Below are positions 1 through 21,077 of a stretch of 33,463 nt of DNA, piece after piece. Under the pieces are notes generated by a model. That model saw only the letters and a list, made by a program, of their open reading frames with translations, had not been told where the DNA came from and searched no databases. Position numbers and translations under genes: made by a program. Location: positions 1-33,463 of the forward strand of contig CACXSS010000005.1 of assembly GCA_902770245.1 (NCBI GenBank). Direction: 5' to 3'. Numbering within the stretch: position 1 is the first letter of the stretch; every line of letters starts with the position of its first letter. This DNA is from an uncultured Planctomycetota bacterium. GTDB taxonomy: Bacteria > Planctomycetota > Planctomycetia > Pirellulales > Thermoguttaceae.

Positions 1-126
1 ACAATCGGTACAACAATAAATTATTTCAAAAATTCTATACGAATGAGCTTTTTTCCCGATTTATATATCAATCGACGTGAGGAAGCGTCGTGAATACAAC
101 ATTCTTTATAGTTAATGGGTATTATC
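1..126 (+). promoter_or_regulatory. Porin 1 upstream control region
   Basis: This is the first of four related porin control regions. An ACAAYCGNTACAAC box lies at 1-14, exactly 126 nt before the start codon. A weak -10-like ATCAAT is at 67-72. An inverted repeat CGACGT/GCGTCG at 73-78 and 85-90 encloses the loop GAGGAA. The sequence GGGTATTATC directly precedes the ATG at 127. No classical Shine-Dalgarno site is visible. The same elements recur in the same order before the other three porin genes, so the architecture is supported by comparison; the role of each element is inference. Confidence 0.55.
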
Positions 127-1551: not shown

Positions 1552-1895
1552 AAAACAAGCAGTATGCACACCGCGAGAAAAAAGAATTAGAATCACTTAA
1601 CGTTCGTGGTCTGTAAACCAAAACTCCTCTGAAGATTCGGATAATCTTCAAATATCAAAACCCCGGAAGAAGCAATTCTCCCGGGGATTTTAATTAGCAG
1701 CAAGCTGCCAGCTATTATTCTTGTTTTGATTCATAATTTATCTATTTTATCTAATCGGAAAATCTGCTACAACCGATACAACCCGAAAAATTCATAAAAA
1801 GATTCATTTTATTACAATTTTTTTCGATTTAATACAGTATGTAACGCAAGAGGCGTCAAACAAAAATTTGTCATTTATGGTCAATGGGTATTATC
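1552..1895 (+). promoter_or_regulatory. Porin 1-porin 2 intergenic region with porin 2 control elements
   Basis: This 344-nt stretch holds no gene. It contains a 7-bp hairpin GAAGATT/AATCTTC (1631-1649), a terminator (1661-1691), then the porin 2 control region. That region has the box ACAACCGATACAAC at 1769-1782 (127 nt before the start codon), a -10-like TACAGT at 1833-1838, a hairpin ACGC/GCGT with loop AAGAG at 1844-1856, and GGGTATTATC before ATG 1896. An ATTTTATCTAATCGG block upstream of the box is shared with paralogues 3 and 4. Function of the blocks is inferred from conservation between the copies. Confidence 0.55.
1661..1691 (+). terminator. Intrinsic terminator after porin 1
   Basis: The stem CCCCGG/CCGGGG at 1661-1666 and 1681-1686 continues, after one mismatch, as AGAA/TTCT closed by a GCAA tetraloop, and is followed by ATTTT. 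It lies about 110 nt after the stop codon and ahead of the next porin control region. Confidence 0.8.
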
Positions 1896-3380: not shown

Positions 3381-3383
3381 TTG

Positions 3384-3419
3384 AAAGTCAGGAATTAGAA
3401 GTCAGAAGCGAGAAGTGAG
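3384..3419. repeat. Heptanucleotide repeat array after porin 2
   Basis: Five degenerate 7-nt units run in register (AAAGTCA, GGAATTA, GAAGTCA, GAAGCGA, GAAGTGA), starting 3 nt after the porin 2 stop codon. The last units form the 5' arm of the terminator, so the repeat appears to have been used for transcription termination. Confidence 0.7.
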
Positions 3420-3446
3420 ACGTTGGAACTCACTTCTCGTTTTTCT
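3409..3446 (+). terminator. Intrinsic terminator after porin 2
   Basis: An 11-bp perfect stem CGAGAAGTGAG/CTCACTTCTCG (3409-3419 and 3429-3439) encloses a 9-nt loop and is followed by TTTTTCTTTT. Confidence 0.92.
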
Positions 3447-3490
3447 TTTAAATTGATTCTCAACTCTCAATCATTATCGCCATCTTGTTC

Positions 3491-3619
3491 ATTTTATCCA
3501 ATCGAAACAATACACCAAAAGCATTCGGACAATCTTTTTAATTGAACGTTATACCGATTTAATACAATGCGCGACGCTGGAGGCGTTGTGTGTAATATTA
3601 ATGGTAAACGGATATTATC
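3491..3619 (+). promoter_or_regulatory. Porin 3 upstream control region
   Basis: This is the most diverged of the four control regions. The block ATTTTATCCAATCG is at 3491-3504, the distal ACAAYCGNTACAAC box is only partly recognisable, and a -10-like TACAAT is at 3563-3568. Directly after it comes a hairpin CGACGC/GCGTTG (3572-3577 and 3583-3588, one G-T pair) with loop TGGAG. The TATTATC block precedes ATG 3620. The upstream ATG present in the other copies is absent here (AACGG instead of AATGG), which settles the start codon for the whole family. Confidence 0.55.
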
Positions 3620-5011
3620 ATGAAAACAATATCAATCTTAACTGGAATTGCGCTAACGATTTCCGGTCTGTTTACGAGCCTTGCGTTTGCGGATTCCGAT
3701 TCCACTCCAACTGACAGCGTTCCTGAATCCATTGTCGATTCTGCCCCTGAGGCTTCCGTCCCAGCATACGATCCTTGCATAGCATCTTGCGCCGAATGCA
3801 ATTCCGCTTGCCTTTCAGCCGCGCCGGATTGCGGATTCTGCGCCGAATGCGGAAATCCCGACTGCAACGGATGCTGCGATTCCTGCGTTCCTTACGGATT
3901 CTTTAGAAACCTGAAGAAATCTCTCTGCGAAAAAACATGCTGGTCCGGCTACATAAACGCCGGATACGATACCAACTTCTCTGGCGACCGCAGCAACGGT
4001 CTTGTCGACGCCTGGAATAATACAACCCCAACGCTCAACAGCTTATATATTTCCGCCGAAAAAAAGACGTTTACCGGCGGTTACGGCTTTGACGTCGGCT
4101 ATAGAGTTGACTTCATGTTCGGCGAAGACGCTCGAATCTTTCGTTCTGCCCGCGGCTTGGATCAAAACTGGGTTACCGGGCACATGTACAACGCCAATAC
4201 AGGTGAATATAACAGACCTTCATACGGCTTTGCCATGCCGTATTTGTACGTAGAAACCGCTATCAACAACTGGTCTGTCAAAGCGGGACATTTCAGGAGC
4301 ATTGTCGGCTACGAAGGAGCGCCTGCCCCGAAGAGATTCTTCTATACCAAAGGTTTGATCAGTTCCTCATCTCAAACCGGCATTTTAGCAACATACAACG
4401 GATTTGAAAACCTCGACATTACCGTTGGCTGGGTCAACGGCTGGAACAACGGATTCGACAACAGCAGATTTAACGACGGCATGGCGTCCGGTTCGTTCGC
4501 ATACCATATAAACCCGGCTGCGTCCATTAAATACTCGTTCCAGGCTGGAACGGCTGATATAGCAACCTTATTTGCATATTGGGGAGCGAGTAAATGGGGG
4601 CATACGAAAGGCGTTGGAGCCATTCACTGCGCTATTTTGGACGTTCATCTTAACAGCGCACTGGAATCCGTTACAATCGTGAACTATGCAGATTTTGGGC
4701 AGGCGATCGACTCCGACACGGGAACGCGAGCGCTCATTCTCGGAGAACATTTGTATTACACGATCAACTGCTGCTGGAAAGCCGGATTTAGAGCCGAATG
4801 GCTGAAACAGACGGATTATTACGGAACCGTTGACGATACCGAAGTTACATCGTTTACCCTCGGTCTGAACTGGCATCCGGGAGGAAATCAAAACCTCTAC
4901 GTCCGTCCGGAATTGCGATACGACCGCACGACCGGGGTTTGCAGTTACCACCCGCTCAACGGACGCGTTGATCAGCTCACCATCGGCTTTGACGTCATGA
5001 TGACGTTCTAG
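3620..5011 (+). CDS. BBP2-type outer-membrane beta-barrel porin, paralogue 3
   Basis: This encodes 463 residues. The signal peptide (about 1-24, ending SLAFA) is followed by a shorter, more acidic spacer than in paralogues 1 and 2 (Asp/Ser/Pro-rich, then CIASCAECNSACLSAAPDC and later CDSC). The barrel has WSGYINAGYDTNFSGDRSNG, VDAWNNTTPTLN, FMFGEDARIF, WSVKAGHFRSIVGYEGA, GWVNGWNNGFDN and a terminal GFDVMMTF. The DTNF, VDAW and YWGxxxWG signatures pair it with paralogue 4, so the array probably arose by more than one duplication. The spacer has lost the CDPA repeats, which shows that this segment evolves much faster than the barrel. The start at 3620 is the only reasonable one. Confidence 0.88.
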   Translation: MKTISILTGIALTISGLFTSLAFADSDSTPTDSVPESIVDSAPEASVPAYDPCIASCAECNSACLSAAPDCGFCAECGNPDCNGCCDSCVPYGFFRNLKKSLCEKTCWSGYINAGYDTNFSGDRSNGLVDAWNNTTPTLNSLYISAEKKTFTGGYGFDVGYRVDFMFGEDARIFRSARGLDQNWVTGHMYNANTGEYNRPSYGFAMPYLYVETAINNWSVKAGHFRSIVGYEGAPAPKRFFYTKGLISSSSQTGILATYNGFENLDITVGWVNGWNNGFDNSRFNDGMASGSFAYHINPAASIKYSFQAGTADIATLFAYWGASKWGHTKGVGAIHCAILDVHLNSALESVTIVNYADFGQAIDSDTGTRALILGEHLYYTINCCWKAGFRAEWLKQTDYYGTVDDTEVTSFTLGLNWHPGGNQNLYVRPELRYDRTTGVCSYHPLNGRVDQLTIGFDVMMTF

Positions 5012-5042
5012 GCGCCTTGCAGAATAGCGATTATTATAGCAG

Positions 5043-5078
5043 GAAGTGAGGGCGTAAAAAACTCTCACTTCTTTTTTT
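5043..5078 (+). terminator. Intrinsic terminator after porin 3
   Basis: An 8-bp stem GAAGTGAG/CTCACTTC (5043-5050 and 5064-5071) is followed by seven T residues. The stem sequence is nearly the same as in the porin 2 terminator, consistent with duplication of the gene together with its terminator. Confidence 0.9.
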
Positions 5079-5135
5079 GTCTTTTATTATCAGGTTTCTT
5101 ACCACTCATCTGACATCCGCCATTTCTAATTTCAC

Positions 5136-5287
5136 CCATTTTATCCAACCGGAAAAATCGTTACAATCGTTACAACCGGATTAAACGCAAAATTATCTAT
5201 AAAATTGTACCTTTAACCGATTTAAAACAATACGCGATACAAGAGGCGTCGCACATACAATGTTTTTTATGGTAAATGGGTATTATC
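5136..5287 (+). promoter_or_regulatory. Porin 4 upstream control region
   Basis: The ATTTTATCCAACCGG block is followed by the box ACAATCGTTACAAC at 5163-5176, 125 nt before the start codon. A -10-like AACAAT is at 5226-5231. An extended hairpin follows (5234-5240 with 5246-5252, loop AAGAG); its stem differs from the other copies by changes that mostly preserve pairing (one T-G pair and one mismatch). GGGTATTATC precedes ATG 5288. Confidence 0.55.
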
Positions 5288-6688
5288 ATGAGAAAAAGTT
5301 CACTCTTAGCTGGATTAGCAATCATTTCCGCCCTGTTTACGAGTCAGGGATTTGCGGCGTCAGGCTGCGTTTCTGCCGCATGCAACCCGGCTGCCGCTGC
5401 TGCATGCGACCCGGCTGTCGCCGCCGCTACAGCTTGCGAACCTGCTGCCGCTGCCAATGCCTCGCCAGATTCCACTGCAAATTGCAATACTGGTTGTCAG
5501 GATGAGTCTTGCTCAGCAGAGCCTATATGCAATAATCTTTGCCAACCTCAAAGCTGCCTTGAAATCGCTCTGGGCAACCTTAAACAATCCCTATGCGAAA
5601 ACGTTTGCTGGTCTGGCTATATAAACGCCGGATACGATACAAACTTCTCCGGCGACCGCAGCAACGGTATGGTCGACGCGTGGAATAACACCACCCCGAC
5701 GCTCAACGCTGTATATGTTTCCGCCGTTAAAAAGGCGTTTACTGGCGGTTACGGGGTCGATTATGGATTTGGCGTTGACTTCATGTTCGGCGAAGATTCC
5801 CGAATCTTCCGTTCCGCTCGCGGTCTGGATCAAAACTGGTACACCGGACACATGTACAATCCGGCTACGAAAGCTTACGATCGTCCTTCCTACGGGTTTG
5901 CCATGCCGCAGCTGTACATGGAAGCCGCTATTAACAACTGGTGTGTTAAAATCGGTCATTTTTATGGTCTGTTGGGCTACGAAGGCGCAACCGCACCGAG
6001 CAGATTTTTCTATACGAAAGGTTTGACCTGCGCCGCGTCCCCCGTCAGCCAAACCGGCGTTTTGGCTTCCTATAACGGATTCCAAAACCTCGACCTGACC
6101 CTCGGCTGGGTCAACGGCTGGGGCAACGGATTCGACAACAGCAGATTCGGCGAAGGCTTGCTTACCGGTTCGTTCACGTACCACATCAACCCGATGGCGT
6201 CAATCAAATACGCGTTCCTGGCTGGAACGGCTGACATGGCAGGCGTGTTCGGATATTGGGGAGTGTATAACTGGGGACGCATTAAAGGCGTTGGTTCAGC
6301 CCACAGCGTTGTTTTTGACGTTCATCTCAACAATTGTCTGGAATCCGTTACAACCGTGAACTATGTCGACTTCGGACAGGCGGCCTACTCACAAAACGGC
6401 ACTCGAGCGCTCATCATTGGCGAACACCTGTATTACACGCTCAACTGCTGCTGGAAAGCCGGATTCCGAGCGGAATGGATGAAAAATACAGATTACTACG
6501 GAGGCGCTGACGATACCGAAGTTACATCCTACGCCCTTGGTCTGAACTGGCATCCGGCGGGAAATCAGAATCTGTACGTCCGACCGGAACTGCGATACGA
6601 CCGCGCGACCGGCGCTTGGAAGAACCAGCCGCTCAACAAACGACCCGACCAGTTCACCATCGGCTTTGACGTCATGATGACGTTCTAG
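5288..6688 (+). CDS. BBP2-type outer-membrane beta-barrel porin, paralogue 4
   Basis: This encodes 466 residues. A signal peptide (ending SQGFA) precedes a CNPAAAAACDPAVAAATACE-type spacer, then a Cys/Asn/Gln-rich stretch (NCNTGCQDESC, CNNLCQPQSC) and the barrel. Barrel landmarks are WSGYINAGYDTNFSGDRSNG, FMFGEDSRIF, WCVKIGHFYGLLGYEGA, GWVNGWGNGFDN and terminal GFDVMMTF. The WSVK motif of the other copies is WCVK here, adding a cysteine in the barrel. The CDPA-rich spacer resembles paralogues 1 and 2 while the barrel resembles paralogue 3, so recombination between copies is possible. ATG 5288 is chosen by alignment of the four leaders rather than the upstream ATG at 5276. Confidence 0.88.
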   Translation: MRKSSLLAGLAIISALFTSQGFAASGCVSAACNPAAAAACDPAVAAATACEPAAAANASPDSTANCNTGCQDESCSAEPICNNLCQPQSCLEIALGNLKQSLCENVCWSGYINAGYDTNFSGDRSNGMVDAWNNTTPTLNAVYVSAVKKAFTGGYGVDYGFGVDFMFGEDSRIFRSARGLDQNWYTGHMYNPATKAYDRPSYGFAMPQLYMEAAINNWCVKIGHFYGLLGYEGATAPSRFFYTKGLTCAASPVSQTGVLASYNGFQNLDLTLGWVNGWGNGFDNSRFGEGLLTGSFTYHINPMASIKYAFLAGTADMAGVFGYWGVYNWGRIKGVGSAHSVVFDVHLNNCLESVTTVNYVDFGQAAYSQNGTRALIIGEHLYYTLNCCWKAGFRAEWMKNTDYYGGADDTEVTSYALGLNWHPAGNQNLYVRPELRYDRATGAWKNQPLNKRPDQFTIGFDVMMTF

Positions 6689-6765: not shown

Positions 6766-8934
6766 TTATCCCAACCGCAATTCTACGTCGCTTTGCTGAA
6801 TCATCCAGGGATTGTTTTCTATCATGACAACCGTATGGCCGTAGGCGGTCAGACGGCGAAACGTTTCTATGAGTTTGTCCAGTTCAGAATCGTGCAGACC
6901 GGCAGAGGGTTCGTCCAGCAGAAAAAGGGTTTTCTGCTTGTAAATTTTCTGAAGAGCCTTCGCCAAATCCAGCCGGCTTCTCTCTCCGGCAGAAAGCGTC
7001 TTGATCGGCTGTCCCAGTTCCAGACGTTCCAAACCGATGTCAATCAGCGACGTCAAAGGCAACTGAACGCTGCGAATGTTTCGGAAAAACGAAAACGCGT
7101 CTCGAACCGTTAATCGAAGGATTTCCGCCGCATTCAGACCGCGAAATCGAGACTGTAAGTATTCTTTCTGAAAGCGTTCTCCCATACACTCGCTGCAGAC
7201 CATTTCAATTTCCGGCAGATATTCCAGATCAATTGTCAAAACGCCCTCGCCTTTGCATTGCTGGCACCGACCTTTCCCGCTCATCAGACTGAAATCGCCG
7301 GGGGCAAACCCTCTGGCTTGAGATTCCGGCGTCGACGCCAATTCCGCGCGAACGGAATCCCAAATTCCCAGATACGTCGCCACGCAGCCCCGCGGCGGCT
7401 TACGTTCCAGCTTCCGTTCTACGAGAATCACGTCCTCAAACGCGTCCTGACCTGTTACAGTTCGTTTCAAATCATCTGGAACTGGCTTTCCTGCCAGCTG
7501 AGCCAGGAAAACCGATTTGCCAGCCCCAGCGCGTCCTGTAATAGCAGTAATTTTACCAATTATAGGAGCGATATTTAATTCGGAATTAGTAATTCGCAAT
7601 TCGGACGGGCGACTACACTGGGGCGCCTCTACATTACTAATTGCTAATTGCTCATTGCTAATTGCTAATTGAACTACGCAATCCGCCGCTTGAATGAGCG
7701 ACGCGTCGTTGTCGGCAACCACGACTGTATTCCCTCTGTCGCGCAATCGCAGCAACGCGGAAAGCAGCGCAGGGCGATTTTCCGGTGGAACTCCGTCCAT
7801 TGGCTCGTCAAAAACGTAGAGCATATTGACCAAATCGCCTGCAAACATCGCCGCCATCTCCGCCCGGCGAATCTGTCCGCCCGACATCGTTTCCGCCTTG
7901 CGGGACAAAGACATATAGCCAAGACCGGCGGCTTGTAAAGCCCGCGAGATTTTTGAGTTAGGAGTTAGGAGTGAGGAGTGAGGAGTTGATTTTATGAGTT
8001 CCTTCTCGCAACTCTCCAGAATCTGATCTGCTGACAGCTCGTACCATTCCAGCAGATTCTTCCCATCGAGCTGATACGCCAGGATTTTGTCGCGTTCGGA
8101 AGGATCTTTCGGCAATTCCGAAAGATAAAATCGTTCAACCGCGCTGTCGGAAAACTCCTGTCCGCATTGAGGGCACGTTCTGCCCTGCCCTGCGTATCGT
8201 TTAACCGTTCCCTCCGGCGTTTCAATAAACACAACTGCTTTCCCGCCCGATTCCGCAAACGCCAGTTCAAACGACTCCTTCGTTCGGCTGTCGCCGGGCT
8301 TGAACGCCAAACGGTCAGCAAGAACGTACGGAGTTGCGAGTTGCGAGTTGCGAGTTGCGAGTTGAGCTAGCTCGTTCGCGTCGACCATTTCCACTTTAGA
8401 ATCGCGTTCAATCAGCCAGCGGGAGAATCCGCGCTGAGCGTATTCCGATATTGCCGCCGACGGAACAAAAGCAATCTGAGCGCGACAATTCGCATAAAAA
8501 CTTTCGAAGTATTCCGCAGCCGAAGCAGCTCCGCCGGAGGGGACTTCAATACTGCAACGAGGACAAATCGGGACGGCATAGCGGGAAAACGCCAGCGCCA
8601 AGGCGTCGTCCATGCCGCAAAGCTGAGCCAGCGTTTGATTTAAGTCAACTTTTTCTGACGCTGTCGCCGCTGGCGGCAGATTTTCAATCGAGTCCAAATC
8701 CGGACGCTTCCAAAGGCTGAACTTGCCCCGTCGACGCGTTCCGACCGTCTCGATAAATCGCCGCTGACTCTCCGCAAAGAGCGTATTAATAACCAGCGTC
8801 GTCTTCCCCGACCCGGATGGACCGCAGACAACCGTCAGCCCTCCAATCGGAAAATCGACGTCTAAATTATCCAAACAATTCTCCCGAACGCCGCGTAAAC
8901 GTATAAAGGAATCAAAATTTTTACAATTTATCAT
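6766..8934 (-). CDS. Short divergent UvrA-like ABC ATPase
   Basis: This encodes 722 residues, against about 940 in normal UvrA. The UvrA plan is visible in order: Walker A GPSGSGKT (38-45), a zinc-type CPRC (124-127) pairing with CPQC (254-257), signature MSGGQ (about 350), Walker B YVFDEP (about 375), second Walker A GRAGAGKS (467-474), CQQC plus CSEC (557-583), second signature LSAGE (about 647) and LFLLDEPSAGLH. Odd points: the His of the switch motif (IEHN in UvrA) is Asn in the second half (IENN) and missing in the first (VADND), and the protein stops just after the last beta strand. Three low-complexity linkers are heptanucleotide repeats translated in frame. UvrA recognises DNA damage with UvrB; here the shortened N-terminal half may not bind UvrB, so a paralogous role is more likely. 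The start at 8934 has GGAG upstream; an in-frame ATG at 8988 lies above the promoter-like sequence. Confidence 0.82.
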   Translation of the reverse strand: MINCKNFDSFIRLRGVRENCLDNLDVDFPIGGLTVVCGPSGSGKTTLVINTLFAESQRRFIETVGTRRRGKFSLWKRPDLDSIENLPPAATASEKVDLNQTLAQLCGMDDALALAFSRYAVPICPRCSIEVPSGGAASAAEYFESFYANCRAQIAFVPSAAISEYAQRGFSRWLIERDSKVEMVDANELAQLATRNSQLATPYVLADRLAFKPGDSRTKESFELAFAESGGKAVVFIETPEGTVKRYAGQGRTCPQCGQEFSDSAVERFYLSELPKDPSERDKILAYQLDGKNLLEWYELSADQILESCEKELIKSTPHSSLLTPNSKISRALQAAGLGYMSLSRKAETMSGGQIRRAEMAAMFAGDLVNMLYVFDEPMDGVPPENRPALLSALLRLRDRGNTVVVADNDASLIQAADCVVQLAISNEQLAISNVEAPQCSRPSELRITNSELNIAPIIGKITAITGRAGAGKSVFLAQLAGKPVPDDLKRTVTGQDAFEDVILVERKLERKPPRGCVATYLGIWDSVRAELASTPESQARGFAPGDFSLMSGKGRCQQCKGEGVLTIDLEYLPEIEMVCSECMGERFQKEYLQSRFRGLNAAEILRLTVRDAFSFFRNIRSVQLPLTSLIDIGLERLELGQPIKTLSAGERSRLDLAKALQKIYKQKTLFLLDEPSAGLHDSELDKLIETFRRLTAYGHTVVMIENNPWMIQQSDVELRLG
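7575..7671. repeat. Heptanucleotide repeats inside the UvrA-like gene (central linker)
   Basis: Two blocks of 7-nt units lie within the coding sequence: GAATTAG/TAATTCG/CAATTCG (7575-7605) and TTACTAA/TTGCTAA/TTGCTCA/TTGCTAA (7633-7671). Read on the minus strand they give LAISNEQ-LAISN and SELRITNSELN, placed between the first ABC half and the second Walker A. Because 3 x 7 nt equals 21 nt, the protein also repeats every seven residues. Confidence 0.85.
7955..7989. repeat. Heptanucleotide repeats inside the UvrA-like gene (STPHSSLLTPNS linker)
   Basis: Five units (GAGTTAG, GAGTTAG, GAGTGAG, GAGTGAG, GAGTTGA) are translated on the minus strand as STPHSSLLTPNSK, a segment just before the first ABC signature region that has no counterpart in UvrA. 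Confidence 0.85.
8331..8365. repeat. Heptanucleotide repeats inside the UvrA-like gene (LATRNSQLAT linker)
   Basis: Four exact GAGTTGC units and one GAGTTGA are translated on the minus strand as QLATRNSQLAT, within the insertion domain between the two CxxC pairs of the first half. The same unit recurs at 22419-22461 and 9011 in non-coding DNA. Confidence 0.88.
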
Positions 8935-8953
8935 ATTAATTTCTCCAAACTTT

Positions 8954-8981
8954 ATTATATCGAATTCGCGTCCGCTTGCAA
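8954..8981 (-). promoter_or_regulatory. Candidate promoter of the UvrA-like gene
   Basis: On the minus strand, TTGCAA (8981-8976), a 16-nt spacer and TATAAT (8959-8954) lie just upstream of GGAG and ATG 8934. The predicted transcript leader would be only about 10-15 nt. TTGCAA is its own reverse complement and also sits 15 nt from TATAAT (8997-9002) on the plus strand, so it could serve a divergent rhomboid promoter too; that part is speculative. Confidence 0.5.
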
Positions 8982-9010
8982 TCCCCATAATTTTGTTATA
9001 ATATATAATT

Positions 9011-9103
9011 GAGTTGCGAGAAGCGAGTTTCGAGAGAATCGTTTTGCGCTAATTGCTAATTACTAATTGCTAATTACTAATTGCTAATTACTAATTGCTA
9101 ATT
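9011..9103. repeat. Heptanucleotide repeat block upstream of the rhomboid gene
   Basis: GAGTTGC/GAGAAGC/GAGTTTC units (9011-9031) are followed by eight alternating GCTAATT and ACTAATT units (9048-9103). The array ends 3 nt before the rhomboid start codon and occupies the place where a ribosome-binding site would be. Confidence 0.9.
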
Positions 9104-9106
9104 ATT

Positions 9107-10153
9107 ATGGGCTATCAAGACCGAGACTACTACCGAGAATCCTACGCTCCGAAACGGGAGCCAATGAAAATCGTTTACAAGATTATTATCCTGAACGTTG
9201 TTTTATGGCTGGCAAACGCCTTTATTACGCCGCCGAAAACATACGACGTCAGAGATCCTGGCACAAACCGCATTTATCGGGTTCAAGATTCCGGAACGAT
9301 TACAGAAACGCTTACTCTTCACCATTCGGACGTTTATAAACCGTGGCTGTATTGGAAGTTTATTACATGCGGATTCGCTCATTCCTCCGAAAGCGCTTGG
9401 CATTTAATCGGCAACATGCTCGGTTTGTTCTTCCTGGGCAGATTCGTCGAAGATCGATACGGACCTAAGCAATTCCTGGGGTTCTATCTAGCCGCCATTG
9501 TTGTCGGAAACGCGTTTTGGATTTTCTGCTCCTGGATGAATGGGACGCTTTCTCCAGACTCGCCCTACTGTCTGCTGGGCGCGTCCGGCGGCGTTACCGC
9601 GACAGTAATCCTGTTTGCCATTACCTACCCGAAAGTTACGCTCGTACTGTTCCCTATCCCAATTCCGATGCCCGCCTGGGTTTTCGGTTTGCTTTTAGTG
9701 GGGTCTGACATGTACGGAGCCATGCACGGAGAAGGCATCATGGGCAACAACGTTGCATACACCGTTCACCTCAGCGCAGCGGCTTTTGCGGCTCTGTATT
9801 ACTTTTTAAACTGGAATTTTACCCGTTTAGGCGCCTTGTGTCTGGGCGATTTCAATACTGCAATGCACTTCAAAGCGTCTCCCAGAATTCGCTATCATGA
9901 AGATGAGCGATATGACGATGGAGAAGACGCTTTCCTGTACAAGCCTCGCAGTCAAAAAAAAGATTTATACAGCGAAGAAGATTCACGTAACTATGCTGAA
10001 AGAGAAAAGGACGCTCGTCTGGAAGCGGAACTGGCAGACGAGGCTGACCGTATTCTGAGAAAAATTTCTCAGACCGGAAGAGAGAGCCTCACCCGCGCAG
10101 AAGAACGCACTCTTCAAACCTACAGCGAACTTTTACAGAGAAAAAAACGTTAA
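9107..10153 (+). CDS. Rhomboid family intramembrane serine protease
   Basis: This encodes 348 residues. It is an integral membrane protease that cleaves transmembrane substrates. Seen in the sequence: a charged cytosolic N-terminus, a first membrane segment at about 24-41, a lumenal loop, WHLIGNM (His99, Asn103) in TM2, GASG with the catalytic Ser at 160, and a catalytic His at 221 in VHLSAAAFAALY. The Ser/His dyad and the oxyanion Asn are present, so it should be active. A hydrophilic tail of about 100 residues rich in Asp/Glu/Arg/Lys follows. ATG 9107 is chosen; a TTG four codons upstream lies inside the repeat array. There is no Shine-Dalgarno site because the heptamer array runs up to the start codon. 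It is divergent from the UvrA-like gene. Confidence 0.92.
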   Translation: MGYQDRDYYRESYAPKREPMKIVYKIIILNVVLWLANAFITPPKTYDVRDPGTNRIYRVQDSGTITETLTLHHSDVYKPWLYWKFITCGFAHSSESAWHLIGNMLGLFFLGRFVEDRYGPKQFLGFYLAAIVVGNAFWIFCSWMNGTLSPDSPYCLLGASGGVTATVILFAITYPKVTLVLFPIPIPMPAWVFGLLLVGSDMYGAMHGEGIMGNNVAYTVHLSAAAFAALYYFLNWNFTRLGALCLGDFNTAMHFKASPRIRYHEDERYDDGEDAFLYKPRSQKKDLYSEEDSRNYAEREKDARLEAELADEADRILRKISQTGRESLTRAEERTLQTYSELLQRKKR

Positions 10154-10220: not shown

Positions 10221-10249
10221 TTGACAGATTATGAAAAAGAGCTTAATAT
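10221..10249 (+). promoter_or_regulatory. Sigma-70-like promoter P1 of the coiled-coil/VWA cluster
   Basis: A consensus TTGACA at 10221-10226, a 17-nt spacer and TAATAT at 10244-10249 are seen. It lies about 115 nt upstream of the ATG at 10366. Confidence 0.75.
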
Positions 10250-10291: not shown

Positions 10292-10320
10292 TTGCATAAA
10301 TACAAATTATCTATTATAAT
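10292..10320 (+). promoter_or_regulatory. Sigma-70-like promoter P2 of the coiled-coil/VWA cluster
   Basis: TTGCAT at 10292-10297, a 17-nt spacer and a consensus TATAAT at 10315-10320 lie about 45 nt before the start codon. Two promoters 71 nt apart suggest strong or dual control of the downstream gene. Confidence 0.75.
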
Positions 10321-10365: not shown

Positions 10366-11757
10366 ATGAAGCTTCGCAAGCAAGCAGTTACCATCGGATT
10401 TATTATATTTTTCGTTCTGGCGTCTATCGGTATGGGCGTTGGTATATACCTGATTTATCAACAATGGGACGAAAATCAAGCCAAAATTCCAGAAGCCGTT
10501 AAAAAGCTTACCACCAAAGACGCTGAAATCGCCAGCGTTCAAAAGGATATCAATACGCTTAAAACGTTGGTTGGCTGTCCGGAATCAATGCGGCGAGATT
10601 ATGTTTTCGACATTATTGATAAAGATATAGAAAAGTACGCCGGTCCAACGTCCGGGCTTGAACTGGAAGACGCGGATAAAGTCTACGCTAAGATTATCGC
10701 CAAAATGTTCAGTAAAATTCAGGAACAGAAAGCCACTTTATCTCAGCGTCAGGCGGAACTGGAAAAACTCAAGGTTGTCAACCTGTCCCGTGAACAATCC
10801 AAAGACAAGGAGCTTGTTTCCCTTATAGAATCCTCTAAAAAAGATCAGCAAACGCTCCTCGCCGCTATTGACAGCAGTTCAGCTCAAAGAGATAAAATTA
10901 ATAAAGCCAAGGAAGAGATTTACGCCGAATTGGATAAACTGTTCAAAGATAATGAAGAACAATTTGTCGAAGCCAACAATAAAATCGCTAAAGCTAACGA
11001 AAGCATCAAGGAACTCGATATCATTCGAGAAGATTTGCAGCGAGTCGCAAAAGCCAAAAAGAGCAAATCCATCAGCCGTCCCGACGGTTTGATTTTGTCG
11101 TATAATCCCATGACAAAAGTTGCGGTTATTAACCTCGGATCTGGAAACAACCTTCGAAATCAACAAACTTTCGACATTTATCCTGCTAACGCCACAACCA
11201 GCACAACAAAGCCCAAAGGAACGCTGCAGGTTTTCCAGGTCAACTTTAATCAGGCGCTTTGCTACGCAGATGAGTTTTCCACAAGCGATCCGATTACTAT
11301 GGGAGATAAAATATTCACTAAAGGCTGGACGCCGGGAGATCACGTTCGATACGCCTTGTGTGGAAATCTTGACGTAACGGGCGATGGCAAAAACGATATT
11401 GATCGAGTTTTGACGTACATTCAGCAGCACGGCGACGTTTGCGACGCCTACCTCGACGGAACGACAATGCACGGAAAAATTGTCGCTGAAACGCAGTTTT
11501 ACGTAGTTGGAACGCCTCCTGATCCGGAAAAGAACCCCAAGGAAGCGGCAGCGTTCAAAGAATTTGTTTCCCAGGCAAAACGCTACAGTATTCCTGACAT
11601 TACTCTTCAGGATTTAATGAGCCGTCTGGAAACAAGAGAACTTTCAAAAGTCAAATCGGGCGCACAACCTCAAAATTCCCAGCCTTCGTATGGCGTTACA
11701 CGATCCAAAGACAACACCTTCCGAAGCCGCACTGGAAACAGAGTCATGCCTCGTTAA
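10366..11757 (+). CDS. Membrane-anchored coiled-coil protein with BRCT-like C-terminal region, paralogue A
   Basis: This encodes 463 residues, with no family I can name. A single transmembrane helix (about 8-30) is followed by a long charged helical region (about 40-235) likely to form a coiled coil, then a beta-rich domain beginning RPDGLILSYNP with NLGSGNN and GDKIF motifs. After that comes a segment with a DVTGDGKND acidic turn, a helix, GDVCDAYLDG and ETQFYVVGTPP. The order strand-acidic turn-helix-strand-strand resembles a BRCT-like fold, but that is inference. The topology predicts a short cytoplasmic N-terminus with the bulk in the periplasm. The start is supported by AGGAG 8 nt upstream. 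It is followed 58 nt later by a same-length paralogue, and the C-termini align from the NLGS motif onward. Confidence 0.8.
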   Translation: MKLRKQAVTIGFIIFFVLASIGMGVGIYLIYQQWDENQAKIPEAVKKLTTKDAEIASVQKDINTLKTLVGCPESMRRDYVFDIIDKDIEKYAGPTSGLELEDADKVYAKIIAKMFSKIQEQKATLSQRQAELEKLKVVNLSREQSKDKELVSLIESSKKDQQTLLAAIDSSSAQRDKINKAKEEIYAELDKLFKDNEEQFVEANNKIAKANESIKELDIIREDLQRVAKAKKSKSISRPDGLILSYNPMTKVAVINLGSGNNLRNQQTFDIYPANATTSTTKPKGTLQVFQVNFNQALCYADEFSTSDPITMGDKIFTKGWTPGDHVRYALCGNLDVTGDGKNDIDRVLTYIQQHGDVCDAYLDGTTMHGKIVAETQFYVVGTPPDPEKNPKEAAAFKEFVSQAKRYSIPDITLQDLMSRLETRELSKVKSGAQPQNSQPSYGVTRSKDNTFRSRTGNRVMPR

Positions 11758-11815
11758 GTTTTAACCAATTTCATGAAAAAACATTTTAAATATACGGATT
11801 GAGAGAGAGACCCAA

Positions 11816-13204
11816 ATGTTTAAAGCAGCTTTCTGGTGGAATTTCGCGTTAATCGTATTCTTTTTGATCACGGTTTCGCTCGGCGTTACGCTTTATGTGT
11901 TCTATCAAATGAACGCAGAAACGTTAATGCATCTTCAAGAATTGTCTGACGCTCAGGCTGTCAAAAATGGAGAATTGATGGTCAAGCAGAACGAACTTGA
12001 AGAATTCAAGAAAAAAATTGACGGCGAAGAAACCAAAAAGACGGTTCAGGAACTGGTCGACGATCATGCCGCTGTTATGAAAAAGTATGCGGAAAACTTC
12101 ACTAAAAGCAATCAGTCCTATTCAAGCATTTTGGCTTATCTGTTCAATCAGATGCAGGTTCAAAACTTCACCCTGGATGCCAACCAGCAAGATACGCTCG
12201 ACCTGACGGCGTTTAACGAAAACAGAACAAAGTACAATTCCATTGCCATGGATTCCGTTAAAAAGCACACTGCTATTTTCACGGAAGACAAAAACGTCTA
12301 CGCAAAAGCCTTAGCGGAAATTGAGGCAGACCTCAACAAACAAAAAAACGACCTGGACAAACTCGTCAAAGCAGCTGGAACGTCTACAGATTCAATTATT
12401 AAAAAGCTCAACAACGATTTAACCAAAACGAACGAAGACATAAAAGTTCAGATGGGTAAAAATATTAAAGCGCGTCAGCAACTGGCGAAAAATGACACCC
12501 GAGTTGCTGAAAAGCCTAACGGACAAATCCAGTTCATCTCCGCCGCTCAAGGCAAAGCGACCATTAACCTCGGAAGCGCAGACAACATTCCTTTAAGCGC
12601 ATCTTTTTCAGTTTATTCCCGTTCTGAAACCGACATGAAAAACGGAAAGAAGAAAGGAAGCATTCAAGTTGCTCAAATTACCGGATTGCATTCTGCAGAC
12701 TGTATTGTTACATCTGACAATCCTTCAGACCCAATCCTGCCAGGAGATAAAATTTATTCGCCTGTTATCGGCGACCGTCATTTTGCCATTGCCGGCTTTA
12801 TCGATATGGACAATAACGGCATTAACGACGTTGAGCAGCTTGTAAAGCTTTTGGAAGCCAATGGCGCCGTTGTTGACGGCTATCAAAATGAAGACAAACA
12901 GGTTCGTCGTTTGGAAGAAACGACAGACTTCCTGATTATTGGCAGAAGACCGGACGAAAGCGCTCGTGAAGAAGAACGAATGACTTTTACCAACTTTACC
13001 AAAGCAGCGCATGAATTTAATACGCCTCAGCTCAGCCTTGATCAGCTCCTGCAAGACATGGGCGTCAATCCAGACAGATCATCCGTTATCCAGGGCGGAG
13101 TCGATACGCGTCCAATTCCTTATACCAAAAGCAACTATTCTGGCGGAGACGTCAGCGGCTTGTATAAGGAAGATCGAAACAATTCAAACAATGAAAATGA
13201 GTAG
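11816..13204 (+). CDS. Membrane-anchored coiled-coil protein with BRCT-like C-terminal region, paralogue B
   Basis: This encodes 462 residues with the same plan as the preceding gene: one N-terminal membrane helix (about 7-30), a coiled-coil-prone Lys/Glu/Asn-rich region, then KPNGQIQFISAAQGKATINLGSADN, a GDKIYSPV motif, FIDMDNNGINDVEQL (an acidic Ca-site-like turn followed by a helix), GAVVDGYQ and ETTDFLIIGRRPDE. Sequence identity with paralogue A is low in the coiled coil but clear in the C-terminal domain, as expected when the helix is a spacer and the end domain carries the function. A GAGAGAGA purine run precedes the start. It is probably co-transcribed with paralogue A and possibly with the VWA gene downstream. 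Function unknown. Confidence 0.8.
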   Translation: MFKAAFWWNFALIVFFLITVSLGVTLYVFYQMNAETLMHLQELSDAQAVKNGELMVKQNELEEFKKKIDGEETKKTVQELVDDHAAVMKKYAENFTKSNQSYSSILAYLFNQMQVQNFTLDANQQDTLDLTAFNENRTKYNSIAMDSVKKHTAIFTEDKNVYAKALAEIEADLNKQKNDLDKLVKAAGTSTDSIIKKLNNDLTKTNEDIKVQMGKNIKARQQLAKNDTRVAEKPNGQIQFISAAQGKATINLGSADNIPLSASFSVYSRSETDMKNGKKKGSIQVAQITGLHSADCIVTSDNPSDPILPGDKIYSPVIGDRHFAIAGFIDMDNNGINDVEQLVKLLEANGAVVDGYQNEDKQVRRLEETTDFLIIGRRPDESAREEERMTFTNFTKAAHEFNTPQLSLDQLLQDMGVNPDRSSVIQGGVDTRPIPYTKSNYSGGDVSGLYKEDRNNSNNENE

Positions 13205-13226
13205 TTTTTAGAAAAGCTCATTTTCA
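13192..13226 (+). other. Hairpin spanning the paralogue B stop codon
   Basis: A perfect 10-bp stem TGAAAATGAG/CTCATTTTCA (13192-13201 and 13217-13226) includes the end of the coding sequence. There is no T run after it, so it is not a normal terminator; RNA processing or partial attenuation before the VWA gene is possible. Confidence 0.5.
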
Positions 13227-13345
13227 GAATGAATAACATTCAAAACCTTTGAAAAGATTAACAGATATTAAAAGTATTTCAAATAAATTACCAGGTTCGT
13301 CAATAAGAATTTGACGTTTTCCTACTACCCTTTGGAGTATTACAC

Positions 13346-16300
13346 ATGCTTACTAAACGAATTAACCCAGTTGCGATTCTCGCCGTTTTGGCGTTCGCAT
13401 TAATCGCATCAACGGCGCTGGCGCAAGAACTTATTCTGGACGAACCAGTTTCGACGTCTGCTGAAATGTACACATATAAAGACGCCGCTTCAGGAGAACA
13501 GTACTTCGCGTTGAGCGTCTCTCCTTCTCCCACCGAAATGCCCGCTTCTGGTCGCAACATCGTTATCGTTGCTGACACCTCTGCGTCAATTGCAGCAAAT
13601 TATCGTCAGCAAGAGCTGGATACGATCAAAACGTTTGTCAGCAGTCTCAATCCTGCAACAGACAAAGTTTGTCTTGTTGCCAGCGACGTTGATTCCTCTG
13701 AATTAACCAAAGGGTTTGTATCTCCTGACAGTGAAGAATTCCAAAACGCCTATAAGGCATTGGAAGATCGCGTTCCATTGGGAGCCATGAATATTGAAAC
13801 CGCGATGAAAACCGCTGCCAGCCAGCCTTTTAACGCTGGCAATAATTCGATTATGTTCATTGGTTCCGGAACCAGCCGAGCCAAGACGCTTTCCCCAGCG
13901 CAGTTTGACGCCATTTGCAAAGATCTGGCGTCTAAAAAACTCCCTGTTAACAGCGTTCAAATTGGACCTAATCCAGACGCTCGAGTTCTTTCCTGCCTGG
14001 CAGCAAAAACCGGCGGAATGTCAATTGTTCCATCTGACGATGCAAATCAATCCGTCAGCGACACTGTTGCCGCTATGGACAGCGCAACTGCTGCCAACGT
14101 CGTTTGGCCTGATCAGGCGTCTGTCAAATGGCCGGCATCATTTAAACCGGCAATGGATTTCCCGCCGCTTCGAACCGACCGGGATTCCATGATTGTTGGA
14201 ACGTACACTGGAGACGGCTCGCTCGATTTAACCGCCAATACGTCAGACGGCGCTCAGTCATGGTCTGCCAAACCTGAAAATACCGCTGAAAAATTCGACT
14301 ACATCAAACAGCTGGTTACAATGGCAAACGGTTCCAACGGTCTGGTTCCATTGGTTTCCAAAGAAGATATGTACAAAGCTGAAAACGCCATGTTTGATCG
14401 AGTTAACGAATTGACTCGTCTGGCAAACTCTGCTATCAGTACTGGCGATATTCAGGACGCGCAAAACCTGGTCAACGAACTGAAAAATTTGGATCCTCAA
14501 AATGCCGATGTACAGAATCTGGAAAAGCTGATTGCGGAAAATGGAAATGGTCAGGCAATTGCTCTGGACGACGGTCCGACAGATTTCGACCTGCTGGACA
14601 GCTCTGGTTTGCTGGATTCTGCGGACTCTTCCATGGGAGCTATTACACAGCAGCAGGTTGGCGAAGTTACCCGAACAATCAACGACGCTCGCGCAACTTT
14701 GAGAATCGACCCTGAAGGAGCCATTCAGAACCTGAAAAACATGCGTGAAGCTGTTCGCCGCAATGCTGACATCAAAGCGGCTGACCGCGACGCACTGGTT
14801 CGCAACCTCGAAGCCGCTATCCGCGAAGCTCAGCAGTACGGCGATCAAATGGCTCAGCGCAACGCGGAAGCCGCCAGAAGAATGGCTGAAGCTCAGGACA
14901 GAAAGATTCTCGCCGAGCAAATGATGAGCCAATTGGAAAAAATGAACCAGATGGGAAAGCGATTTGAATCCACCTGCAAGGAAAAGAAGTACGAGCAGGC
15001 GCAGGATCTCATGGTTGACATGGCTAATGAAATGTCTGATTTGGATAACCGCATGCCAACTGCCATTGCCGGCATTCAGTGGACCAGAAACCTGGACAAC
15101 TACGTTAAACAGGTTCAACTTCGCTCGCTCAAGCAGCGCAAAGTCTGTGACACGCTTTATCAAAGCGATAAATCCGCCGTACCGTTCCCGGATGAACCGC
15201 CGATTACCTATCCGGATTCGACCGTTTGGGCGCGTCTGACGGCAAGCCGTCGAGCAAAGTACAGCTCCATGGACTTGGCTCAATCTGGAGAAAAAGAAAA
15301 GCAGATCATGAAGGCTCTTAAAGAACCGACCAACATTGAATTGACAGAAAGTCCTTTGAAAGACGCCATTCAGGAAATTCACGATCAGCATCACATCAAC
15401 GTTCAGATTGACGAAGCCGCATTCAAAGATGAAATGATCTCTCCGGAAGAAGTAACGCTTTCCGTTGATGGAAACGGCATGTCGCTCAAAGCTGCGTTGA
15501 AAATCGCTCTGAGCGCTCAGAACCTGTCCTACGTTATCGAGAACGAATGCCTTTACATTACAACCTTAACCAAGGCGAAAGAAAAGTGCATTACCAAAGT
15601 TTACCCGGTTGCCGACCTTGTCATGCCGCCGCGTATGCCTGATATGAGTAACGTCTTTACCAGCATGGGCAACAATACAACCAGTTTGAGCAATTCTGGT
15701 TCTGGCGGAGGCAACAACAACAACTTCGGCGGCGGTCAGTTCAACATTCCAGCTGAACGACTTCGCCTCAATGCCGCTAAACAGGCGATTCAAAACGATA
15801 ACTTCCAGGCGTTCAACATGAAAGACGATTTGTCCCAATCGGTTCCTGCCGTTAAAACGGAACTCACTCCGGACGGTTCTGTAATCGTCGTTCCAGCGTC
15901 CATCGATAAAAAGGATTTCTGGAAAAACTACTTCCAGCGCAAAGACGTCAATGACAGCCTGGTTCGCAAAACAATGCTTCATTACAAGCATGAGAACAAG
16001 TACAACGACATTATCATAGCTCTTCAGGAGGCAATGCTCGCTGGCAAGGCTCAACCCTGGATGTACGAAGCGCTGGCTCTGGCTCAACTTTGCGCCGGAC
16101 GCCCTCAGTCTGAGTACGAACGTACGCTCATGTCGGCTGTCGAATTCAGCGACGACGCTCAAACGATGATTCTCATCGCCGTCTACATGCAGCGACTTGG
16201 TCTGCACGATCGCGCGCTTCAGGTTCTTCACGAAATCGCAAAGAACAATCCTGAAATGGCTGAACCGTACGAAAAAGCTCTGCCAATCGCTTCGATTACC

Positions 16301-17257
16301 AACAATCGCGAAGCGAAGAAATGGGCGTCTTTGGGAATTCTTTCTTTGGCGTGGCAGGAAGATAAGCAATACTTGTATGACAAAGCCAACGACGTTGCCA
16401 ACAGCGTTGTTGCAGACCTGATTGCTGAAAACAAAAAGCAGGAAGCCAAAGAATTCCAGGAAGAAATCAACAACGCCAAACAGCGCGACTGCATCATTCG
16501 CGTTTCCTGGACTGGTCAGGCGGACATCGACATTGCAGTTGAAGAACCCGGTGGAACGGTTTGCTCAATGAAAAACATCCAGACTCCTGCTGGCGGTTTC
16601 TTCATGGGAGACGCCCACGCCGGTCAGCTTGGCAAAAACAACAAAGCCATGTCTGAAACGTACGTCTGCCCGAAAGGATTCAACGGCGATTATCGTTTGG
16701 CTGTTAAAAAGCTTTGGGGCAACGTCATCGGCGGCAAAGTTAAAGTTGAGTTGTTCACGCACGTCAACGCTGACGATCTCAATTCACTCAAAGGCAAAAA
16801 GCCCATGGTTGGATACATTCAGCTCAAAGACGATGCGGCTGGCATGATGTTCACGCTTCATGACGGACGCCGTACAGCGGCTTCCCAGCAGGTTATTGCC
16901 AACGCTGTCAATAACCAGGTCAACAGAGCGATTTTGGCTCAGCAGCTGGCTCAAGCTTTCGATCCAAATGCAATGGCTAAGCTCGACGGATTTGTCAATG
17001 CCGATCAAGCCGCAGAAGAAGGACGATACTATTATCCTTACTATCGTCAAGGCGCCGTTGGATACCAGCCGCAGATTATCACTCTGCCGACAGGCACCAA
17101 CCTTATGGCTCAGGCGGTTGTTTCCGCTGACCGCCGTTACGTCCGAATTACCAGCGTCCCGATGTTCTCCTACATCGCTAACGTTCGTATTTTCAACTAC
17201 GTTACTGGCGAAGAAACTCAGGGAGACGTCCCGACCGGTTCCGGAACAAGCTACTAA
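13346..17257 (+). CDS. Large secreted VWA / STN-like / DUF2135-like protein
   Basis: This encodes 1303 residues. A signal peptide (1-26, ending STALA) is followed by a von Willebrand factor A domain with MIDAS start DTSAS (77-81). The later MIDAS Asp is not evident (IGSGTS in its place), so metal binding may be weak. A long helical region follows (about 330-640). Residues about 656-752 (NIELTESPLKDAIQEIHDQ to YVIENECLYITT) resemble the secretin/TonB short N-terminal (STN) fold. A Gly/Asn-rich linker (about 778-800), TPR-like helices (about 870-985) and a segment VSWTGQADIDIAVEEPGG (about 1045-1140) similar to the DUF2135/YfaP beta domain come next. The role is unknown; a large extracytoplasmic scaffold is the best guess. 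GGAG lies 9 nt before the ATG. A strong terminator follows. Confidence 0.82.
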   Translation: MLTKRINPVAILAVLAFALIASTALAQELILDEPVSTSAEMYTYKDAASGEQYFALSVSPSPTEMPASGRNIVIVADTSASIAANYRQQELDTIKTFVSSLNPATDKVCLVASDVDSSELTKGFVSPDSEEFQNAYKALEDRVPLGAMNIETAMKTAASQPFNAGNNSIMFIGSGTSRAKTLSPAQFDAICKDLASKKLPVNSVQIGPNPDARVLSCLAAKTGGMSIVPSDDANQSVSDTVAAMDSATAANVVWPDQASVKWPASFKPAMDFPPLRTDRDSMIVGTYTGDGSLDLTANTSDGAQSWSAKPENTAEKFDYIKQLVTMANGSNGLVPLVSKEDMYKAENAMFDRVNELTRLANSAISTGDIQDAQNLVNELKNLDPQNADVQNLEKLIAENGNGQAIALDDGPTDFDLLDSSGLLDSADSSMGAITQQQVGEVTRTINDARATLRIDPEGAIQNLKNMREAVRRNADIKAADRDALVRNLEAAIREAQQYGDQMAQRNAEAARRMAEAQDRKILAEQMMSQLEKMNQMGKRFESTCKEKKYEQAQDLMVDMANEMSDLDNRMPTAIAGIQWTRNLDNYVKQVQLRSLKQRKVCDTLYQSDKSAVPFPDEPPITYPDSTVWARLTASRRAKYSSMDLAQSGEKEKQIMKALKEPTNIELTESPLKDAIQEIHDQHHINVQIDEAAFKDEMISPEEVTLSVDGNGMSLKAALKIALSAQNLSYVIENECLYITTLTKAKEKCITKVYPVADLVMPPRMPDMSNVFTSMGNNTTSLSNSGSGGGNNNNFGGGQFNIPAERLRLNAAKQAIQNDNFQAFNMKDDLSQSVPAVKTELTPDGSVIVVPASIDKKDFWKNYFQRKDVNDSLVRKTMLHYKHENKYNDIIIALQEAMLAGKAQPWMYEALALAQLCAGRPQSEYERTLMSAVEFSDDAQTMILIAVYMQRLGLHDRALQVLHEIAKNNPEMAEPYEKALPIASITNNREAKKWASLGILSLAWQEDKQYLYDKANDVANSVVADLIAENKKQEAKEFQEEINNAKQRDCIIRVSWTGQADIDIAVEEPGGTVCSMKNIQTPAGGFFMGDAHAGQLGKNNKAMSETYVCPKGFNGDYRLAVKKLWGNVIGGKVKVELFTHVNADDLNSLKGKKPMVGYIQLKDDAAGMMFTLHDGRRTAASQQVIANAVNNQVNRAILAQQLAQAFDPNAMAKLDGFVNADQAAEEGRYYYPYYRQGAVGYQPQIITLPTGTNLMAQAVVSADRRYVRITSVPMFSYIANVRIFNYVTGEETQGDVPTGSGTSY

Positions 17258-19262: not shown

Positions 19263-19352
19263 CAAATTTTCTTGCCCAAAAATTTGCATATCTCCCCTTG
19301 TCAAAGCGTTCTTATAACGCTACAATATCTTATATCGGAAAACAAAGAAAAA

Positions 19353-21077
19353 ATGATAAGCCTTCGCCGAGTTCTCCTGACGACGTTGTTTTTATTTGCA
19401 GTCAGCCCGCTGTTCGGGCAGATGTGCAAGGTGGAATTGTCGTCGCCAACTCAGAGTTTGGGCGTTCAGGGCAAACAGACCGTTTTCGTTGAAGCGGCAT
19501 TCTCGGAAACGTACCAAAAGAAAAAGACTGTTCTCGAGCCCGTTCAGCGTCAACCGCTCAACGTCAGTTTCGTTTTGGACAACTCCGGCTCGATGGAAGG
19601 TCAGCCGCTGGAAGGCGCGAAGAAGGCGATGCTGACGATTCTCAACAACCTCTATCCCGGCGACGTCGTTTCGATAACCGTTTTCAGCGATCAGGCGAAA
19701 ACCGTTTTACCGTTCGCTCAAATCGGCGGCGCCAATTCTGGTTTGCTGCAAAAGGGAATCAACAGCATCATTTCCGAGGGCGGAACCTGTTTATTCTCCG
19801 GCGTCAAAGCGGGGGGAAACGCCCTGATGGCAAACGCCGGAACGAACTACGAAAACTGTCTGATTGTCATCAGCGACGGGGAATCGGAAGAAACGCCTGA
19901 ATTCATGAACAACGTTGGGAAAAAACTCCACGACGCGGACGTTCGGGTTATTTGCATCGGCTTGGATTACGACAATCCTCTGCTGGAATCCTTGGCGAAA
20001 GGCGCTCAAGGGGAATATCATCATATTGGACAGGCGAACGAACTGGCAATGATTCTCATGACGGCGCTGGAAAAGTCCAACGTTGCCGCCTCCGCCGCGT
20101 TCGACAACAAATTCATCCTTTCCCTGCCCCCCAACGTAACGCTGGTCAAATCCACCGCCAGAATTCTCGGTTCCAAAACGCTCCGGGACAAATCAACCGT
20201 ATACTATTTTTATCGTTTCAGCTTGCCCGAAAAGAGCGTCTATTCAGAACTGTTTGAACTGGAGGTTTCCCGACAGCTCAAACCCGGCGTTCCGATCGCT
20301 CAAATTCAGGTTTCGTACATCGACGCTGTCGAAGTTGACCTGAAAAAGAAAGAAGCTCGAGAAAAGCTGGAAAAAGAGAACGACGCAGTAGAAGAAATCA
20401 ACGACGCGCCAAACAACGACGGCGATGAACCTGACGTTGACGCAATGGCAGACAATATTCTCCAAAAGCTGGAAATCAAACAACAGCCGGGCAATAACGA
20501 CGAGTCGGATAATCAAGACAATTTGGAGGAAGATGATTTGGTAGACCAGGAACCGGACGATAACGATTTCCTTCTGGACATGACCCGCATGACGCGCAGT
20601 ACCGACAGCGCCAGCCTTGTCATTCCGTTTACGAAAGATAAAGTTTCGATTATCAATCCTGATTTCTATAACGAATGTCGGCTTCGCTGCGAGGTGGCGG
20701 CATACGACTATTTATACGTCAACGCCTGCCAGGGGTTAACGACCGTTATTAACGAACGGCTCAAACAGCACACAGCTAATCTCAACCGTCAGCTTCTTCA
20801 GCCTGTCGTTCCGGAATCAGAACCGCTGCTCAGGCAATTCAAACAGAATACCGAAGACCTTGTCCCGCTGATTAAAACCATTCCCGCCAAATCGGTTGGC
20901 AAAGCTGCTGGAAAGAAACCTCCACGCCGCCCGGCGGTAAAAAAACAGCCGGAAACCAGCTTGAAAGACACGCCGTTTATAGAAAAGCTCAACGTCTTCC
21001 GCGCCGATTTTCTGGAACAATGGCGCGCCATGAGAGAAACGCGAACCGCCATCAAGACTTCCGAGAAAAAAGAATAA
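19353..21077 (+). CDS. Secreted VWA-domain protein with complete MIDAS motif
   Basis: This encodes 574 residues. A signal peptide (about 1-22, ending SPLFG) is followed by a VWA domain (about 68-250) with MIDAS DNSGS (76-80), a Thr in SEGGTCLFSG and an Asp in ISDGES, so metal-dependent ligand binding is plausible. After a beta-rich part, a very acidic low-complexity stretch (about 350-445, Asp/Glu/Asn-rich) leads to a helical C-terminus with a basic Lys/Arg/Pro segment (GKKPPRRPAVKKQ). The domain order recalls bacterial Ca-activated channel/YfbK-like VWA proteins, without clear membership. ATG 19353 is chosen because it begins a proper signal peptide; a TTG 81 nt upstream would add an implausible leader. 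Unlike the 1303-residue VWA protein, this one keeps all MIDAS residues. Confidence 0.85.
   Translation: MISLRRVLLTTLFLFAVSPLFGQMCKVELSSPTQSLGVQGKQTVFVEAAFSETYQKKKTVLEPVQRQPLNVSFVLDNSGSMEGQPLEGAKKAMLTILNNLYPGDVVSITVFSDQAKTVLPFAQIGGANSGLLQKGINSIISEGGTCLFSGVKAGGNALMANAGTNYENCLIVISDGESEETPEFMNNVGKKLHDADVRVICIGLDYDNPLLESLAKGAQGEYHHIGQANELAMILMTALEKSNVAASAAFDNKFILSLPPNVTLVKSTARILGSKTLRDKSTVYYFYRFSLPEKSVYSELFELEVSRQLKPGVPIAQIQVSYIDAVEVDLKKKEAREKLEKENDAVEEINDAPNNDGDEPDVDAMADNILQKLEIKQQPGNNDESDNQDNLEEDDLVDQEPDDNDFLLDMTRMTRSTDSASLVIPFTKDKVSIINPDFYNECRLRCEVAAYDYLYVNACQGLTTVINERLKQHTANLNRQLLQPVVPESEPLLRQFKQNTEDLVPLIKTIPAKSVGKAAGKKPPRRPAVKKQPETSLKDTPFIEKLNVFRADFLEQWRAMRETRTAIKTSEKKE

Follow-up and report, generated by a model that had tools for sequence, protein, structure and literature searches.

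The stretch of DNA analysed here (the window, 33,463 nucleotides) carries a gene pair, A and B, followed by the gene for a large VWA protein. An earlier note on this DNA had described the three open reading frames, and they were recovered at the same coordinates and lengths, all on the + strand. They run in one direction, with gaps of 58 bp between A and B and 141 bp between B and the VWA gene. The features are as follows.

10221..10249, + strand: sigma-70-like promoter TTGACA-17-TAATAT upstream of A, found by scan (10/12)
10292..10320, + strand: promoter-like pair TTGCAT-17-TATAAT, read by eye and not a scan match
10366..11757, + strand: gene A, 463 aa, a protein with a TM helix, coiled coil, barrel and BRCT domain
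10387..10455, + strand: membrane helix of A, about residues 8-30, N-terminus predicted inside
10672..11064, + strand: coiled coil of A, residues 103-233, an AlphaFold helix with block pLDDT mostly 88-96
11071..11340, + strand: beta-barrel of A, residues 236-325, of FlgT-C / F1-ATPase-N type
11341..11637, + strand: BRCT domain of A, residues 326-424, with an acidic Ca-site-like loop at 336-344
11816..13204, + strand: gene B, 462 aa, a paralogue of A with the same four parts
13298..13316, + strand: terminator- or attenuator-like inverted repeat CGTCAA..TTGACG with TTTT after it, between B and the VWA gene
13346..17257, + strand: gene for the VWA/secretin-derived protein, 1303 aa, with a signal-like N-terminus
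13553..14020, + strand: VWA domain, residues 70-225, with DxSxS kept and the other metal-site residues replaced
14396..15646, + strand: region in common with the planctomycete secretin, residues 351-767, in which the STN/N0-like part lies
16484..16825, + strand: DUF2135-like domain, about residues 1047-1160, matched by profile to a DUF2135 protein encoded in the same genome
17057..17233, + strand: truncated secretin-core segment, about residues 1238-1296, matching inside PF00263 of the secretin of the same genome

The earlier note placed two promoters before A. Both sequence pairs are present, in a region that is highly conserved across three genomes of the genus, and the TTGCAT-17-TATAAT pair is mostly kept in G002 and G003. 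Only one of the two was found by the scan, and the scan total was not above that of shuffled sequences, though it did pick TTGACA-17-TAATAT. The inverted repeat that follows B keeps its stem in three genomes of the genus, while its loop varies. A conserved repeat with a T run at this position makes co-transcription of A/B with the VWA gene uncertain.

A and B are 26% identical (E 2e-32) and are true paralogues, as the earlier note had proposed, with the barrel and the BRCT domain common to both. Each has a single membrane helix at the N-terminus, which was also expected; in A it has a hydropathy of 2.49, with three K/R residues before it and one after it. Full-length A was modelled with AlphaFold from 39 homologues, giving a helix at residues 2-68, the long coiled coil as a confident helix, and a mixed C-terminal module. 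A Foldseek search with full-length A gave mixed barrel and F1 matches, and was of little use compared with the model of residues 236-424 made separately (mean pLDDT 85), which resolves into two domains, a barrel and then a BRCT fold. Matches of the coil to SMC, Rad50, TssM and Borrelia P83 were dismissed as coiled-coil noise.

The barrel of A has the fold of the C-terminal domain of FlgT, from the Vibrio flagellar H/T ring (Z 9.4 to 8z5n; also FlgT 3w1e). The likeness is one of fold, the FlgT family being absent among the Pfam matches listed for A/B. Unlike FlgT, A and B lack the FlgT N and M domains, and the N-terminal barrels of F1-ATPase match the A barrel equally well (F1 chains, Z about 9).

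The end domain had been called BRCT-like, and it is a true BRCT domain. Structure prediction gave a BRCT fold, with model residues 91-188 matching LigA (9a6z_B, Z 9.0, rmsd 1.8 over 72 residues) and RFC1 (7u19_A, Z 8.9, rmsd 1.7). In an hhalign comparison the A/B BRCT profile matched the Pirellulales LigA BRCT with E 3.1e-10 (prob 96.8), against a best E of 0.017 for 40 column-shuffled controls and 0.33 for a reversed profile. The RFC1 BRCT domain appeared in a PDB profile search at E 0.03, and Pfam BRCT was not among the matches listed for A/B. The domain also has the GG turn and the T-x-x-L-V-x-G stretch of LigA. Unlike in LigA, it ends a single-pass membrane coiled-coil protein with no ligase or repair domains, and its first strand and helix are joined by an acidic Ca-site-like loop. 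The corresponding D-x-[DNT]-x-[DN]-G-x-x-D turn, which the earlier note had pointed out in A and B, is indeed present in both window copies and in 51 of the 87 family members in all. The overall plan of A and B resembles that of MreC, in which a short N-terminal stretch on the inside leads into a single membrane helix, a coiled coil and a beta-barrel; unlike MreC, A/B has a barrel with other neighbours in fold searches, and a BRCT domain.

The 1303-residue protein was described as secreted, and reading of the sequence alone agrees, given its signal-like N-terminus. Its VWA domain is clear (PF13768, E 1e-15), and together with the region that follows it matches ITIH4 (E 7e-15), as in VWA / DUF2135 proteins of the inter-alpha-trypsin inhibitor heavy chain type. 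Unlike those proteins, it is fused to secretin-derived segments and its metal site is degenerate in the genus: DTSAS is kept, while the T and D positions are replaced in the three aligned genomes, so that a full MIDAS site (DxSxS, T, D) is missing. The site also varies across the wider family. The DUF2135-like part was borne out by a match of the family profile to a protein of the same genome (L172:2413-4950), covering its PF09906 match. Other parts fared better in the family than in the window protein. TPR is weak here and good family-wide. STN is below the cut-off in the window protein (E 0.12 for the whole, 0.006 for the segment), whereas PF07660 is found in 5 of 20 family members (best E 7e-6); with the homology to the N0 domain of secretin itself, we take an STN/N0 domain to be present.

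When the same genome was searched with the VWA family profile, a second gene came up, and it encodes a secretin (PF00263, E 1.5e-24). This secretin, for which sister genomes have a single ORF of about 1290-1310 aa, resembles PilQ and GspD and is single-copy in planctomycetes. In hhalign the VWA protein aligns with it over 400 columns (prob 100, E 5.8e-75) that take in the helical region and STN/N0, and a piece of about 60 residues near the C-terminus of the VWA protein (..GYQPQIITLPTGTNLMAQAVVSADRRYVRITSVPMFSYI..) falls within the secretin domain of the real secretin. By sequence comparison, the 1303-residue VWA protein is thus a paralogue of the planctomycete PilQ/GspD-like secretin, with which it has about 400 residues (E 6e-75) and about 60 secretin-core residues in common. 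Unlike PilQ/GspD, it is without most of the secretin domain and has VWA, TPR and DUF2135-like parts. The remainder of the secretin domain, including the LLGGI motif of real secretins, is missing, and no PF00263 match, and so no complete channel domain, was reported for the window protein. Having kept only part of the barrel core, it is not expected to form a channel.

The earlier note took the STN domain as a sign of contact with secretin or TonB systems. It does point to secretin, but by descent, because the VWA protein is a secretin paralogue; direct contact with TonB was replaced as an explanation by this common ancestry. The protein is encoded as two adjacent co-directional genes at seven Planctomycetales loci and in two f9 genomes, the first gene running from VWA to STN and the second from TPR to the tail, which argues that the two halves are functionally linked. 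The VWA-specific half was found in 29 of 294 genomes of the phylum, strongly in Planctomycetia and weakly or partially elsewhere. The genes next to the VWA gene (tsaD, S41 protease, CitMHS) did not point to a function.

We suggest that the VWA protein, having kept the helical and STN/N0 region of its secretin ancestor, would be an exported accessory that probably joins or regulates a secretin-type machinery. A more specific proposal is that it co-assembles directly with the secretin ring through STN/N0 and serves the planctomycete type II / type IV pilus machine as its plug, gate or substrate receptor. The large region in common with secretin, STN included, is consistent with this, as are the T2SS/T4P-type ATPases encoded in the genome and the retention of both genes in Pirellulales genomes. 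However, the VWA gene is generally not near the secretin gene, common ancestry does not show contact, and the common helical region could act alone. We consider co-assembly a tentative possibility, on the unlikely side.

Some related genes were seen in passing. The secretin gene of the window's own genome (G000:C30, L259:12358-16221, - strand) is broken by an in-frame TAA, by mutation or assembly error; the ORF is open in the sister genomes G001-G003. Small ORFs at G000:C2:5453-5620 and G000:C146:10067-10303 (about 192 and 307 aa) match different pieces of the secretin domain at 59% and 44% identity, and occur in all four genomes of the genus. Another protein of the same genome (L170:7823-9436) combines a sulfatase-modifying-factor-like domain with FecR-C/STN repeats; STN-like domains are re-used in other contexts.

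The A/B family is much more widespread. A match was found in 74 of 80 relatives (those with names being Thermoguttaceae and other Pirellulales) and in 252 of 294 genomes sampled across the phylum Planctomycetota, usually once per genome. The barrel is present in all 87 members examined and the BRCT domain in 62, being missing from many members of other classes. The commonest setting in the genomes compared is divergent from polA-coaE-rho: polA is present at 24 of 83 A/B loci and is divergent and within about 1.2 kb in 22, often with coaE and rho as well. At the five Planctomycetales loci with both genes, A/B is divergent from polA at 440-610 bp. The neighbours of single-copy A/B genes (polA, coaE, rho, HEAT, TatD-like) gave no functional clue.

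In the window's genus the A/B gene is duplicated and located away from polA. In the tree, A and B fall on long branches inside the Pirellulales single-copy radiation, and they are the product of a duplication within Thermoguttaceae; support for their joining (94/61) is not firm. Head-to-tail A/B-type pairs also occur in genomes of other families (f12, f46/f74, f43 and f30), and form their own a and b clades wherever at least two genomes were available. Pairing has thus arisen several times, which suggests, without proving, that hetero-oligomers of A/B-type proteins are useful.

We propose that A and B would each have a short N-terminus in the cell and one helix in the inner membrane, from which the coil (131 residues) would act as a spacer of about 20 nm, holding the barrel and BRCT domain off the membrane, probably in the periplasm. 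The coils may pair, A with B here and as homodimers where the gene is single-copy, and the proteins may serve as a scaffold or spacer, with the barrel and BRCT domains binding envelope partners. We infer the N-in topology from the charge bias of both window copies and by analogy; the flank charges of single-copy relatives do not settle it. BRCT is normally a fold of cytoplasmic, DNA-repair proteins, which counts against a periplasmic placement. The opposite orientation, with A/B pointing inwards and the membrane-anchored BRCT domain tethering DNA or a repair or replication complex, fits the LigA type of the BRCT domain and would give a meaning to the setting of the gene in many genomes, divergent from polA and close to coaE and rho; the K/R counts of single-copy relatives are compatible with it. 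Against it, the charges of the window copies favour N-in and hence a C-terminus outside, the acidic D-x-D-x-D-G-x-x-D loop looks like an extracellular Ca site, and the barrel resembles that of periplasmic FlgT, though also that of cytoplasmic F1. We regard the inward orientation as unlikely.

The earlier note saw in the three genes a new envelope complex, to be given up if they were not neighbours in related genomes. All four species of the genus share the order and direction A-B-VWA. The VWA gene was found at 3 of 83 A/B loci, all of this genus, with one further sister split between contigs, and outside the genus the genes are not neighbours. They lie far apart in complete or large-contig genomes (4.45 Mb against 0.15 Mb in G026; 5.42 against 2.94 Mb in G053), the exception being G073, from another family, where about 5.7 kb separates them and their strands differ. 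The A/B family is also present in classes without the VWA protein, and its much wider distribution (252 against 29 of 294 genomes) implies that it does not need the VWA protein. A conserved three-gene operon was ruled out by the neighbourhood maps, and adjacency only in this genus, with the uncertain co-transcription, leads us to reject a conserved three-part complex. A complex limited to the genus, in which an inner-membrane A/B heterodimer binds the VWA/STN protein near the outer membrane, is quite improbable: the kept order, the conserved promoter region before A and the proximity in G073 speak for it, and the absence of linkage at every other locus examined, the occurrence of A/B across classes without the VWA protein and the terminator-like repeat after B speak against it.

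Our preferred reading, to which we give an even chance, is that two unrelated envelope families lie side by side in one genus, A/B as a scaffold and the VWA protein as a secretin accessory. The adjacency is most likely a recent local rearrangement, and a genus-level link is possible; the kept order, short gaps and single direction would also be expected from a functional link, and count against this reading. A bolder version, which we find doubtful, is a phylum-wide envelope scaffold with a periplasmic, Ca-stabilised BRCT domain, repeatedly duplicated into heteromeric tandem pairs, alongside a channel-less VWA pseudo-secretin.

A/B and VWA represent two families, neither of them characterised, rather than a proven three-part machine, and literature searches on planctomycete signature proteins, BRCT and VWA-secretin found nothing on either. 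The envelope of Planctomycetota is unusual, and many proteins specific to the phylum have no known role. In Planctopirus limnophila, 108 genes for such proteins are essential (PMC10632474). A T2SS operon of the same species encodes planctomycete-specific proteins with no known role (PMC10632474), so that unknown partners of this machine are to be expected. Conserved and mostly single-copy, the A/B family is a candidate of this kind; its combination of domains was not found in the literature searched, and a BRCT domain bound to the membrane, possibly in the periplasm, would be a surprise. The secretin-derived VWA protein, made by two genes in one order and one gene in another, offers a lead to planctomycete secretion or pilus machinery.

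The window holds several other genes. Four tandem BBP2/OmpL-like porin paralogues (478, 498, 463 and 470 aa) occupy 115-6688, and several copies occur in sister genomes. A UvrA-like ABC protein of 740 aa is encoded at 6766-8988 (- strand), its UvrA match being piecemeal and below the cut-off, and adjoins a rhomboid protease gene (9095-10153). Two kilobases downstream of the 1303-aa VWA gene, at 19272-21077, lies the gene for a second, unrelated VWA-domain protein of 601 aa.
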